A stretch of DNA of 64,000 bases from Ianthella basta (taxonomy: Eukaryota > Porifera > Demospongiae > Verongiida > Ianthellidae). A program made the translations under genes and the position numbers. Location of the stretch: NCBI GenBank assembly GCA_964019415.1, contig OZ025868.1:16098030-16162029 (forward strand). The letters are read 5' to 3'. This document shows positions 12,179-58,009 of the stretch, piece by piece (the stretch's first letter is position 1; every line of letters starts with the position of its first letter). The notes beneath the pieces were generated by a model, which searched no databases, was not told the DNA's origin, and saw nothing but the letters and a program-made list of their open reading frames with translations.

Positions 12179-44591
<32,413 letters not shown>

Positions 44592-45641: not shown

Positions 45642-46757
45642 TTAGACTGTGGTAGAAGTGCTACGATTCTTCCCAGATTTCGGGACTGTGGAGTAAACGA
45701 AGTTCCTCTCAAAACCTTTACGCTCGTAAGTCAGTGGGGAAATGGGTTTTTCAATGGCGACCGACGTGAGAACATCGTCCAACCAACTGTGCTCCTCTTC
45801 CATCACTTCGTCACCAGACAGTGACGTTATGGCACTGTCATTTTCCTGACGTGACAATCTGTCACCTACACCCTCAACACCATCAACACTACTTACCGAG
45901 ACAGGGACAGATGTTCCCCCGACAGCACCAACATGTCCGTTGAAGTCTTGTCGCCCGGTGACGTTGGCCTCACTACATGCTCTTCTCAGAGTGGATGAGG
46001 CACGGTGCCGAGGGACAGTTGGAATGGGGATTGGGTAGCCTTCAAAGCGTGCACTGGTAACGGTTGCAGCCTTTCGAAGCTTCTTTGTCGGTTTCTGATA
46101 CACAGCGCCATCCGTACTCTCTCGCTTGGGTCCAACGCTCTGAATCTTCAACTGAACATCACTCTTCACCTTCTCAATGTCCATTATCTGTTCCAGCGCT
46201 TGGCTCCCAGCTACGTGCTGGAAGTTGCACGGCTTGGAGATCATTTCCCGCGTAAAACGTGGTACTAAAGGCGCCAGGTCTTTGGCCTTGTCCTTTCGCT
46301 CGCTCAGTTCATTCCTCTCCCTATTCCATTTCATGTATGTAGCTTGGAACTCGGCTGCGACGATTTCGGACTCGAACAAGACGCCTAGGATCCCCTCCAC
46401 GGAGTGAAGCTCGAACACATGGAAACGGTCACCAATAACTGAGTAGCTGCACGTCATCCCCAGTGTCTCCTTCCACACGGACACGCCGTAACGCTGATCC
46501 ACGATACAAAGTGAGAGTTGCCACTCCGCGCCTTTTTTGCTAACAACTCTGTTCCTCAACATCGCAACGATTCCAGACAGCACGTATTTCCAGTCCATAG
46601 TCGCCAGCTCTCCCGGGTTCGTCTTCATGGGGGTGACAAACACGTGCGCCCGACAGCCGCTCACCAAGGACTCAGCATTGCGACTGGAGAAGGAGAATCG
46701 AATCTTGTCCAAAGTGTCCTTGTCCATAACGTGGAACGTCTCTGTGAATTCGCTCAT
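45642..46757 (-). CDS. WH1-CRIB (WASP-like) protein lacking a recognisable VCA tail
   Basis: An intronless frame of 371 codons from an ATG at 46757. Residues about 45-150 fit a WH1/EVH1 domain: WQLSLCIVDQRYGVSVWKE, then a YFH-like FHVFELHS strand, then the closing helix EIVAAEFQATYMKW. Residues 173-184 (ISKPCNFQHVAG) fit the CRIB core ISxPxxFxHxxH of Cdc42/Rac-binding proteins, as in WASP. After that come a basic stretch (KPTKKLRKAA) and a Ser-rich tail with an acidic patch carrying a Trp (EEEHSWLDD). The long proline-rich region and the WH2 actin-binding motifs of WASP are not seen. It may be a WASP-derived adaptor that binds Cdc42 and WIP-type ligands but does not deliver actin. Assignment rests on motif patterns. 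Confidence 0.6.
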   Translation of the reverse strand: MSEFTETFHVMDKDTLDKIRFSFSSRNAESLVSGCRAHVFVTPMKTNPGELATMDWKYVLSGIVAMLRNRVVSKKGAEWQLSLCIVDQRYGVSVWKETLGMTCSYSVIGDRFHVFELHSVEGILGVLFESEIVAAEFQATYMKWNRERNELSERKDKAKDLAPLVPRFTREMISKPCNFQHVAGSQALEQIMDIEKVKSDVQLKIQSVGPKRESTDGAVYQKPTKKLRKAATVTSARFEGYPIPIPTVPRHRASSTLRRACSEANVTGRQDFNGHVGAVGGTSVPVSVSSVDGVEGVGDRLSRQENDSAITSLSGDEVMEEEHSWLDDVLTSVAIEKPISPLTYERKGFERNFVYSTVPKSGKNRSTSTTV

Positions 46758-47111
46758 CTCTGCACAACTTTGTAGGACTGTGAAACTCTGTCCCTATCTA
46801 CTAACAAAGAATAGTTGTCCCCTCTGAGGGGTAAAGGTTGTCACCAGCCAAACTGCCAAACTTGGAGATAAAGTTCTTCTTCCTGTGGTATTCGGCGGAA
46901 ATTCATCAGATAGCCAAATAAGGAGGTTGTCCTATGAATATTATTATTAATGGACGTGGGCGGGATTACCATGACACTGGGGGTTGTCCCGCCGTTTCCA
47001 AAGCAAAGCGGTTTGCTGGAGCAGAGCGGTTTGCTGGAGCAGTGAACCGGAGCGCGCAGATTGCAATTGGAGAGGGAACTGTTAGCGTAACAGAGCGGTA
47101 GAGCCTGCAGC
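46758..47111. promoter_or_regulatory. Shared divergent promoter, WH1-CRIB and PRDM9-like genes
   Basis: Only 354 bp separate the two start codons. The interval contains two direct copies of gcggtttgctggagcag (about 47007-47041). No TATA box was noted on either strand. Confidence 0.5.
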
Positions 47112-49596
47112 ATGTGCGAACTCAGCGAGTACGAAAAGAAACGGATACAACGAATTAGAGAGAATGAAAGTTTCTTGAAGACACTAGGTACGTGTGTCAC
47201 CAGGGAGCGCTGCAGTATTGCAGCGTACTCGGCTGTGCACTAGAGGCATAGTGCGTGCGCTGTATGAGTTTCCTTCTAATGCAGGCCTGGACTTGAAGAG
47301 CAGACGTGGGGAGTTGTCTGAGGCCGGTAGCTCGTCAAAGAGGCGAAGGAGGAGGCGCGCTGGGAGCGAGGATGACGATGATGATTGGGTTCCTGGAGTG
47401 GAGGAGGCACCGAGACGGTCCCGGAGGGGTAAGCCAATAGTGACGCTGTTTAGAGGAGGTTTCAGTTGTGCTTGTGCTTAAAATAGAGGTTGGACCATCT
47501 GCAGTTACTGTAGTAATATGGGTATAACTCCTATTTCCCTGCATGCATGCATATGTGAATATGTCATATACATCACTGGCTTCTGCTTATCCTCTAAATA
47601 CCAATTCTCCTCCCCTCTTCCCCTCTACTGTGTGTAGCACGTAAGACTGTATCCTACAAACCAAACGTCTTGTTCAAGCTCCCACAAGAGGAGAAGTTGT
47701 CCTTGAAAGAAGTGACCCGGAAAGTGGTAAGATCCATCCACTCACCATATCAATCTATGTCACATGTGTTGATTTTGTGACAGGAGTTGAGTGAACAATT
47801 TGGTGTGTGCTCTGAACCTACTTTCACTGCCTATTTTTAATGTTTTCAATACTTTTGGATTTGTTACTTCAAGTCACTGTCTTGTTTCTTTGCTTTGTTC
47901 CTGTCAGACGCGGCAGGTGGAGGAGGTGTTCAAACAGGGCCTTAGTACCTCCAAGTGTGGGGTGGGGCGGGCAGGAGGGAGGCGTGGTGACACACCCACA
48001 GAGGTCCCTGATGTGGAGCTGCCAGACTTCTTTGACGACAGCAACGACCCTGAGGTGTTTTATGGCTTCTCAGAGGATGAGTGCCACCCTGAGCTGGCTG
48101 GGGATAGCAGCGTGGACAGAGTGTGTGTGTGGGTCTTGCCTTCAGAAGTGGAGGATCTGTTTAACTCAGACAGTGACGACACTGATTTTGAGGGATTTGA
48201 CGAGGATGAAAGGTTGGTAACATCAATTAACTGCTTGTCAGTAGATTAGGGTACATAAGCATGACCATTGAATGGTGCGTGTGCATGCAATCAATCAATA
48301 TTACATACCACATGCAGATTATGCGTATGTATGTTTTTCTAAGAATTTGTGAGCATTCACTAAGTTTTTTGTGCTACTGATCATCCATAGCATAAGCAAT
48401 TGATTCACCTGCCATCCATGAACCACACTTAATCCTTCTTTATTTATTTGGCTATAGCTTCTTTGCACTGTTTGAAGAGGCAAAAGAGATTTGCTGTGTG
48501 ACACGTCAGTCAGCAAGGAAGGTGGGTCAGGAGAAGACCTATACAGAGGATGAGCTATCTGATGAGGACGAGTACCTTTGTGAGTTCACTGAAGTGACAC
48601 ATACGCTTACAGAACACTATAGTACCACCATTTCCACATGTTGGGGTGTTTGTGCATGTACCCTAATAACTAATAGCTGCCTGTAACTGCAGGTGAGTGT
48701 AAAACCATCCCTGCACATCTTTTCTCTCCGTATTGGACTGCTTTAGAACCTGCACATTTCTATACTATGTGTTAATATAAATGGCTATACATAAAGTGCA
48801 CAAATATTCTTCTCTGGCTGTGTCATCCTCCACCCATCCACCCAGATTGTGAGGAGTGTGGGCAGATTAACCGTGGGGATTGCCCCATTCATGGCCCCCT
48901 CACCCCACTGGATGAGTCGCTGGGTGTTGATGAGGCATCGAAACAATTCACAAGTGTTCCAGTGCCAAAACAGCTCACAGTTAAGGGATCCACTATCCCT
49001 GACGCTGGGATGGGAGTCTACTCCAAGGAGTACATTCCTAAGGGGACACGATGTGGGCCTTACAGGGGAACCATTGTGGACAAGATGGACATTGGAGCTG
49101 ATGTGGACACTGCATACATGTGGGAGGTGAGCATGCAATAGTTGTACCTTGCATTCTGGTGGTGTGGGGTTATTCATACAAATAAAGTGTTTGAAGTTTA
49201 CATGAATCAACTCTTTGAAAAGTCCCTTATAGTTTTGGAATTAGCTGCAAATGAGCAGTCATTGTGCTTTATTAAATATTGTTTTAGCATGATTTTATAG
49301 TTTCCCCACACAACTTGCATTAAGCTTATAAAAGCATATGTCAATTCTTATAGGAATACATAATAATTGGCTGAAATGCACTCTATCGACTGTTAACTCT
49401 GTCTCCCTGGATGCCCTGAATTGCCTGACTAGATCAAAAAGTCTGGTTGCTCAGCGTACTATCTTGATGGGAGTGATGAGGCCACCTCCAACTGGATGAG
49501 GTTTGTCAACTGCGCTAGAAGTGAGACGGAGCAGAACATGGTGGCCTTTCAGTTCTGCGGAGAGATGTACTACCGGACATACCGTGACATCTACCC

Positions 49597-49633
<37 letters not shown>

Positions 49634-51045
49634 GAATCTAACTTCCCAGTGCATCTACCTCAGTAAGTGTACAACTGCAGAATGCAGTAATCTAATGTGC
49701 ATGTGCCATGCTGTAATACTAACACTGTAGGCACTGAGCTGTTGGTGTGGTACGGTGAGGAGTATGCCAAGGACTTGGGTATTGAGGTGACATCAGCACA
49801 CTTGGACTACTGCAGTGATAGTGATGACAGCAGTGATAACGAAGATAAGCCAAGTAAGTTGCATTCAGTGCATGCAATCAGCAGTGTCTATAGTGTCCTA
49901 TGTAACCTAAACACACCATGCAGTACTAGTCACCCCCTAAGCACTTTGTAATGTGAAATACAGTACATACTTACACAGGTGTCATTTGACTGGGTCATGT
50001 CACACCTGCACCTGATTAGCACTTGCAACTGTGACTTTGTTGTGCTTGTCAAGAGATTTACAATATTTGGTTGCCATGCACTTTACCCACAGAGTTCAGA
50101 ACATCCTTTGTCTGTCGTGGTTGTGGTGCCTCCTTTGTTGAGCATTCGTCCTTCAAGATCCACCTCAAGTACAACCGTGAATGCCTTGAGGCTAATCCAC
50201 AAATTTTCAGTTGTCGATTATGTGGAGAAAAGTATGGACGGCTGTTTGAGCTGCAGGATCACATTCGTAAACACGAGCAGCTAAAAGACATCAGCACTGT
50301 GTCAACCAAGGAAGCAGACACTGCCCTCAATTATGTTGCTGGTGTGACGAGGTGGGGTGGAGCTGGTAAAAAGACTTTCACATGTACCTACTGTGACAAG
50401 GCATTTACTAGTGACGGCTACCTCAAGACACACATCCGAATACACACTGGTGACAGACCATACCAGTGCACCTACTGTGGTAAGACGTTTACTACAGACG
50501 GCAGCCTCAAGACACACATCCGAATACACACTGGTGATAGACCATACCAGTGCACCTACTGTGGTAAGGCGTTTACTACAGACGGCAACCTCAAGACACA
50601 CATCCGAATACACACTGGTGACAGACCATACCAGTGCACCTACTGTGGTAAGGCGTTTACTACAGACGGCAGCCTCAAGACACACATCCGAATACACACT
50701 GGTAACAGACCATACCAGTGCACCTACTGTGGTAAGACGTTTACTACAGACGGCAACCTCAAGACACACATCCGAATACACACTGGTGACAGACCATACC
50801 AGTGCACCTACTGTGGTAAGGCGTTTACTACAGACAGCGACCTCAAGAGACACATCCGAATACACACTGGTGACAGACCATACCAGTGCACCTACTGTGG
50901 TAAGGCGTTTACTACAGACGGCGACCTCAAGAGACACATCCGAATACACACTGGTGACAAACCATACCAGTGCACCTACTGTGACAAGGCATTCATTACC
51001 AGTCGTGACATGAAAAAACATATTAATACATTTCATGGAATATGA
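47112..51045 (+). CDS. PRDM9: PRDM9-like PR/SET histone methyltransferase with C2H2 finger array
   Basis: Nine exons: 47112-47187, 47285-47428, 47638-47726, 47908-48212, 48458-48579, 48846-49126, 49433-49598, 49731-49853, 50093-51045 (TGA); 752 residues. An acidic/basic N-terminal region (residues 1-245) has no KRAB box I can see. It is followed by the zinc knuckle [20 protein letters not shown] (from 244), the arrangement found in PRDM9/7/11. The PR/SET domain spans about 275-420, with [31 protein letters not shown] and [15 protein letters not shown]; the cofactor and catalytic tyrosine motifs are kept, so H3K4/K36 methyltransferase activity is plausible. One post-SET finger (443 on), a second isolated finger, then eight tandem C2H2 fingers from 531 to the end. 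In vertebrates PRDM9 places meiotic recombination hot spots; here this is inference. Confidence 0.88.
50377..51040 (+). repeat. 84-bp zinc-finger coding repeat
   Basis: Eight fingers in register; the phrase tgcacctactgtg recurs every 84 bp from 50467 to 50971. The inner six units differ at only a handful of bases, mostly in codons for helix positions 2, 3 and 6. The first and last units are more divergent, as expected for an array evolving by unequal exchange. Confidence 0.93.

Positions 51046-51630: not shown

Positions 51631-54298
<2,668 letters not shown>

Positions 54299-54330: not shown

Positions 54331-58009
<3,679 letters not shown>

Follow-up and report, generated by a model that had tools for sequence, protein, structure and literature searches.

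A predicted PRDM9-family gene with a homogenised zinc finger array and an excess of contact-site variation in the sponge Ianthella basta

The PRDM9 genes of vertebrates are among the closest described systems. According to Baker et al. 2017 (PMC5519329), the fingers evolve rapidly in vertebrates if and only if PRDM9 is complete, with one possible exception, and the vertebrate data given there link the KRAB and SSXRD domains to both rapid finger evolution and recombination targeting. Table 1 of that paper lists scores of 0.331-1.000 for genes with KRAB, SSXRD and SET (one has no value) and of 0.158-0.331 for vertebrate genes with SET only, which occupy 46 rows by our own count.

Outside the vertebrates, Oliver et al. 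2009 (PMC2779102) describe concerted evolution of the Prdm9 fingers in Nematostella, Lottia and Capitella, and report positive selection at positions -1, 3 and 6 in Nematostella. A 2026 review (PMC13186367, citing Ponting 2011) places full-length PRDM9 homologues in cnidarians and sponges. The same review states that it is unknown whether the function of PRDM9 is equally old, treats as open when and why a self-destructive placement of recombination arose, and confines the direct evidence to vertebrates. The first-pass annotation of the locus described here suggested that PRDM9 may target recombination in early animals. This idea is not new, since the literature already includes sponge PRDM9 and rapid evolution of the fingers in a sea anemone. 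No paper on the finger array of a sponge PRDM9 was among the matches listed for PRDM9 combined with sponge terms, which is no proof of absence. The unusual point of the predicted protein appears to be the array signature in the absence of full KRAB and SSXRD domains.

The searched genome of Ianthella basta has 209,087,449 bases in 96 contigs. The window, which is the whole stretch of 64,000 nucleotides that was analysed, corresponds to C1:16,098,030-16,162,029 (contig OZ025868.1). It contains a PRDM9-like gene at window positions 47112-51045 on the + strand. The splice model, inferred from the sequence, has nine exons separated by GT-AG introns throughout and results in a stop-free translation of 752 aa. 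An in-frame TAA stop is located at 47088, upstream of the gene start. From the N- to the C-terminus, the protein consists of a helix-like stretch, a basic/acidic region, a zinc knuckle, a PR/SET domain, two separate fingers and a tandem array of eight, and the last exon (exon 9) contains every C2H2 finger. The assembly represents a single haplotype at this gene, with one match of 100% and a second-best match of 50%. The features are listed below in window coordinates, and contacts refer to helix positions -1, 2, 3 and 6.

47112..47187, + strand: exon 1, N-terminal helix (21 residues), half-KRAB-like, with the intron right behind Leu-Gly
47285..47428, + strand: exon 2, basic stretch and acidic-Trp motif DDDDDWVP
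47638..47726, + strand: exon 3, from the splice model
47908..48212, + strand: exon 4, acidic linker, from the splice model
48458..48579, + strand: exon 5, corresponds to the SSXRD site of vertebrate PRDM9; SSXRD not detected
48846..49126, + strand: exon 6, zinc knuckle (17 residues) and start of PR/SET
49433..49598, + strand: exon 7, further part of PR/SET; YYRT holds the catalytic Tyr equivalent to human Y341
49731..49853, + strand: exon 8, last part of PR/SET; VWYGEEY holds the catalytic Tyr equivalent to human Y357
50093..51045, + strand: exon 9, every C2H2 finger plus the stop codon
50107..50184, + strand: separate finger a, C2HC form, PF00096 (two stretches in the segment)
50206..50277, + strand: separate finger b, C2H2, PF00096
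50377..50460, + strand: finger 1, contacts S, G, Y, T
50461..50964, + strand: fingers 2-7, homogenised, contacts TGST, TGNT, TGST, TGNT, TSDR, TGDR
50965..51045, + strand: finger 8, diverged, and protein end, contacts T, R, D, K

Several other features lie in the window. Satellite DNA with a 30-bp unit and approximately 548 copies by TRF occupies about 17 kb (20453-37365). A single-exon open frame of 383 aa is located on the - strand (45642-46793), divergent from the PRDM9-like gene and starting about 350 bp from it. This frame looked WH1/CRIB-like by eye, but no Pfam family was found in it. The convergent neighbour on the - strand (52223-52828) is a TLC-domain gene (PF03798, E 1e-9), and on the + strand (55883-56089) there is an exon that, on visual inspection, resembles a 26S proteasome AAA ATPase.

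The PR/SET domain of the array gene was matched to 15 PDB sequences. The best of these is PRDM9 (139 bits, E 9.9e-40), followed by PRDM14 (106 bits) and PRDM11 (89 bits). The Pfam PR domain covers residues 291-412 of the 752-aa protein, and the knuckle and PR/SET together align end to end with PRDM9 chains 4c1q, 6nm4 and 4ijd. With the uninterrupted translation, this bears out the earlier description of the knuckle and PR/SET as intact, and membership in the PRDM9 family is near certain as judged from similarity. In the alignment to the PRDM9 PDB sequence, tyrosine occupies all three of the positions equivalent to Y276, Y341 and Y357, which were placed by counting on what we take to be the human PRDM9 numbering. 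These three residues are named as catalytic in PRDM9 (PMC5519329). The source had also been called a non-vertebrate animal from the letters alone, and the mitochondrial contig C96 confirms this. Its COX1 reads with TGA as Trp, and the gene order is nad6-nad3-trnR-nad4L-cox1-cox2-trnK-atp8, with the genes for tRNA-Asn and tRNA-Trp on the opposite strand.

A second PR/SET gene is located on the same contig at about 8.45 Mb (C1:8,451,690-8,451,010, within the region C1:8,445,000-8,454,900). It has a zinc knuckle, retains all three tyrosines, and its top PDB match is also PRDM9 (115 bits). Two fingers are seen in the adjoining open frame and no tandem array is present there. Since the best match of the second gene is likewise PRDM9, either of the two may be the PRDM9 orthologue. 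Relatives in the prokaryote collection (genome_contigs) gave 19 pattern matches, none of which was confirmed, and the viral collection (viral_contigs) gave three, again with none confirmed, as expected for both collections.

The array consists of eight C2H2 fingers in an exact 84-bp register starting at 50377. TRF reports a repeat at 50386-50990 with a period of 84, 7.2 copies and 95% matches. The mean pairwise DNA identity of the inner six fingers (50461-50964) is 95.9% (range 92.9-98.8%). The residues at the helix positions are those that had been noted from the sequence: fingers 2-7 carry, in order, S, N, S, N, D and D at position 3, five of them have G and one has S at position 2, and at position 6 T occurs four times and R twice. 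Codons 8 and 14 of fingers 2-5 show all four combinations (Thr-Ser, Ala-Asn, Ala-Ser and Thr-Asn). This four-gamete pattern suggests exchange between the finger units, although a repeated transition at one site would give the same pattern. Together with the homogenised units, it supports the proposed concerted evolution of the fingers.

The diversity of the inner fingers is enriched at the contact sites but is not exclusive to them. Four of the eight variable bases in fingers 2-7 fall within the 12 contact-codon bases, in the codons of helix positions 2, 3 and 6 (hypergeometric/Fisher P = 0.0128). The other four lie outside the contact codons, one at an Ala/Thr site before the conserved Phe (Thr in two of the six inner fingers), two in linker codon 25 and one in linker codon 26. 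In the linker an Asp/Asn change and an Arg/Lys change each occur once. Three of the six variable residue positions are therefore elsewhere and position -1 is fixed as Thr in all six inner fingers, so the statement that diversity is confined to the contacts does not hold, whereas the excess at the contacts does. The contact share of residue diversity in fingers 2-7 is 0.58, with P = 0.008 when compared with every possible set of four positions, P = 0.017 among the 22 non-structural positions and P = 0.013 in a permutation over the 24 non-Cys/His positions; these values are modest and the hypothesis came from the very data tested. Inclusion of finger 1 (fingers 1-7) gives a share of 0.50 (P = 0.002 and 0.007). 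The range of contact residues is narrow (S, N, D; T, R), with single steps between them, and seven of the eight variable bases are transitions. Only one variable base is silent (third position of codon 25), compared to about a quarter expected without selection. Eight variable bases with one silent change are too few synonymous data for a dN/dS above 1 to be demonstrable.

The array was also compared with others in the same genome. A total of 28 regions were taken, 26 around C2H2 matches and two around zf-CW matches, and scoring covered every array with at least three fingers, both in the window and in the 26 C2H2 regions. This set is incomplete, since 150 of the 269 PF00096 candidates were scored. 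Among the 21 arrays examined, the PRDM9-like array has the highest contact share, 0.451, ahead of 0.302 for the runner-up. Its homogeneity over the Cys-to-His core is 0.83, compared to 0.37-0.56 for the other 20. The criterion of Baker et al. 2017 of at least four fingers of 28 residues (PMC5519329) selects four of the 21 arrays, which score 0.500 (the PRDM9-like array), 0.233, 0.207 and 0.196. A score of 0.500 by the published measure is at the level of complete vertebrate PRDM9s, yet KRAB and SSXRD are undetected here, and the value is noisy because it derives from seven fingers with little diversity. In the region C10:7,585,000-7,592,000, two arrays of five fingers each face opposite ways with about 0.7 kb between them, and the longer match of the + copy runs through stop codons. 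The region C19:5,408,000-5,417,500 has a six-finger array within an open frame of 2786 aa.

The N-terminal half of the PRDM9-like protein has neither KRAB nor SSXRD by Pfam, NCBIfam or PDB, and its PDB matches are compositional or unrelated. The genome-wide search found no KRAB (control blank). For SSXRD there were two matches elsewhere in the genome with E 3.7 and 3.9, below the cut-off (control blank). A segment of 25 residues does match, ungapped, the second half of what we take to be the human PRDM9 KRAB-A sequence, with a score of 51. Shuffled sequences score 18.7 +/- 3.7 (SD), and none of 2000 shuffles of either sequence scored as high. Extending the match as far as the acidic-Trp motif raises the score to 65, which was reached in 0 of 2000 shuffles of the query and 1 of 2000 shuffles of the target. 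The motif in question, DDDDDWVP of exon 2, was likened by eye and by alignment to DSDEEWTP, presumably the human counterpart. When matches to KRAB-A were ranked over 348,138 bases in six frames, exon 1 was the best (46 unspliced), followed by locus L050 with 36 and an unrelated stretch with 34. We treat this resemblance of the N-terminus to the latter half of the PRDM9 KRAB-A box as a lead. The first KRAB helix is missing. A hidden copy of it upstream was sought by eye in the three forward frames of 46700-47187 and was absent, and the in-frame stop lies in this interval. L050 (C10:4,573,156-4,573,230) encodes an N-terminal motif like that of exon 1, with 16 of 25 residues identical. Since a similar motif occurs in another gene of the same genome, the half-KRAB-like motif is not specific to PRDM9. 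The ancestral type of KRAB-A is listed only from Bilateria in PMC8835667.

Genes for possible partners of PRDM9 are present. The zf-CW domain occurs in two places only in the genome (nine candidates, all scored), and both genes have a PWWP-like sequence downstream, with the exons joined by eye. The best solved match of one is ZCWPW1 (2e61, E 2.5e-8) and that of the other is ZCWPW2 (4o62, E 3.8e-10). The PWWP score is 22.6 bits in the ZCWPW1-like gene, against a cut-off of 25.6, and 26.3 bits, over the cut-off, in the other. In vertebrates the presence of ZCWPW1 and ZCWPW2 coincides with that of PRDM9 and the losses are coupled, as reported in PMC8892340. The two sponge genes, assigned by their nearest matches, would fit a PRDM9 that acts in recombination. 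TP6A_N, the SPO11-type domain, has two matches over the cut-off. These lie about 29 kb apart on contig C22 (L046 and L047) in near-identical exons, possibly one duplicated gene. No solved relative was found for a 36-residue piece of the SPO11-like exon. MEI4 has one match with E 0.08, below the cut-off.

The best single reading of these observations, and one we consider moderately probable, is a functional PRDM9-family gene that places meiotic breaks in the sponge. Recombination targeting is plausible. The protein would be a sequence-specific histone methyltransferase, in which the C-terminal fingers choose the DNA sites and PR/SET marks the neighbouring nucleosomes. Its most likely job would be to place meiotic double-strand breaks away from promoters, and the ZCWPW1-like and ZCWPW2-like proteins may read the marks. 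The finger exon would behave as a coding minisatellite, in which the 84-bp units stay similar through unequal exchange and gene conversion and changes in the contact codons are retained more often than changes elsewhere. Loss of target sites by conversion would then favour new contact residues. The sequence itself shows the gene structure, the family, the catalytic residues, the homogenised units, the contact-site excess and the presence of reader genes, and from there we infer methyltransferase activity, germ-line expression, break placement and red-queen selection. The recombination-targeting reading is weakened by the result that no KRAB or SSXRD was found, since these domains are tied to it in vertebrates. 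Further points that count against it are the variable bases outside the contact codons, the fixed position -1, the few contact states, the second PRDM9-family gene, the low PWWP score of the ZCWPW1-like gene, the lack of a solved relative for the SPO11-like exon, the MEI4 match below the cut-off and the single assembled haplotype.

The missing KRAB and SSXRD would also agree with a somewhat unlikely alternative, in which the gene encodes a PRDM9-family transcription factor that does not place breaks. Its fingers would have been amplified recently by replication slippage or unequal exchange and then diverged by mutation under relaxed constraint at the contacts. The small number of variable bases, their bias to transitions, the single silent change and the variation of three non-contact residues are in line with this. 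The contacts are also among the few finger positions that tolerate change, and the P value weakens to 0.017 when only the 22 non-structural positions are considered. However, none of the 20 other arrays examined is homogenised (core identity of at most 0.56 compared to 0.83), and the contact share of 0.50 exceeds the values of all 46 SET-only vertebrate rows (0.158-0.331). A quite improbable alternative is that four of the eight variable bases cluster in the contact codons by ordinary chance, the tandem array being young and the pattern having come to notice because it was sought. A P of about 0.01 was chosen post hoc and a first rank among 21 cannot go below about 0.05, which leaves some room for chance, but independent features point the other way: the array sits in the one long PRDM9-type PR/SET gene and the genome has genes for both ZCWPW readers. 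An assembly error that collapsed or mis-joined the tandem units could also make the fingers look alike, since 84-bp tandem repeats are easily miscounted and the array was judged from the assembly alone. Such an artefact is hardly credible here, as the frame is open across all units, a proper end finger is present, the units differ in combinations and are not plain copies, and contig C1 spans 16.6 Mb.

A broader reading is conceivable but unlikely. The last common ancestor of animals may have had PRDM9-directed recombination with a simpler protein, consisting of a half-KRAB helix, PR/SET and fast fingers and served by ZCWPW1/2 readers. KRAB-A would have arisen later by the addition of the first helix, and the N-terminal helix motif, common to at least one other sponge gene, would be its source. 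Full KRAB and SSXRD would then be dispensable for red-queen fingers. If this is true, red-queen finger evolution would occur without full KRAB and SSXRD, contrary to the vertebrate rule. If the array proves to be fast-evolving without these domains, the vertebrate requirement would not be general to animals. The N-terminus may also reveal the material from which KRAB was assembled. As an outgroup, a sponge in which the PRDM9-type enzyme is intact, the array is homogenised with an excess of contact-site differences and candidates for both ZCWPW readers occur could be used to test the origin of recombination placement.

Compared with known systems, the second PR/SET gene of the same genome shares the knuckle, the PR/SET domain and the best match to PRDM9 with the array gene, but differs by having two fingers and no array seen. 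The existence of PRDM9 homologues in other sponges is reported in PMC13186367. The Prdm9 genes of Nematostella, Lottia and Capitella (PMC2779102) are likewise non-vertebrate and under concerted evolution, with selection on contact residues in Nematostella. By description only, the selected positions there are -1, 3 and 6, whereas positions 2, 3 and 6 vary in the inner fingers of the sponge. Fish PRDM9 alpha/beta genes lacking KRAB and SSXRD (PMC5519329) have the same SET and fingers only. The SET-only vertebrate rows of that source, one mammal and one gar among them, remain within 0.158-0.331 in 46 of 46 cases, in contrast to 0.500 for the sponge array. Mammalian PRDM9 (Meisetz) differs from the sponge gene, which has no Pfam KRAB or SSXRD and a half-KRAB-like N-terminus instead, a fixed position -1, and eight fingers with few contact states. 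The two have in common the zinc knuckle, the PR/SET domain with three catalytic tyrosines, a single last exon with separate finger(s) ahead of the terminal tandem array, and homogenised units with diversity at the contact sites.
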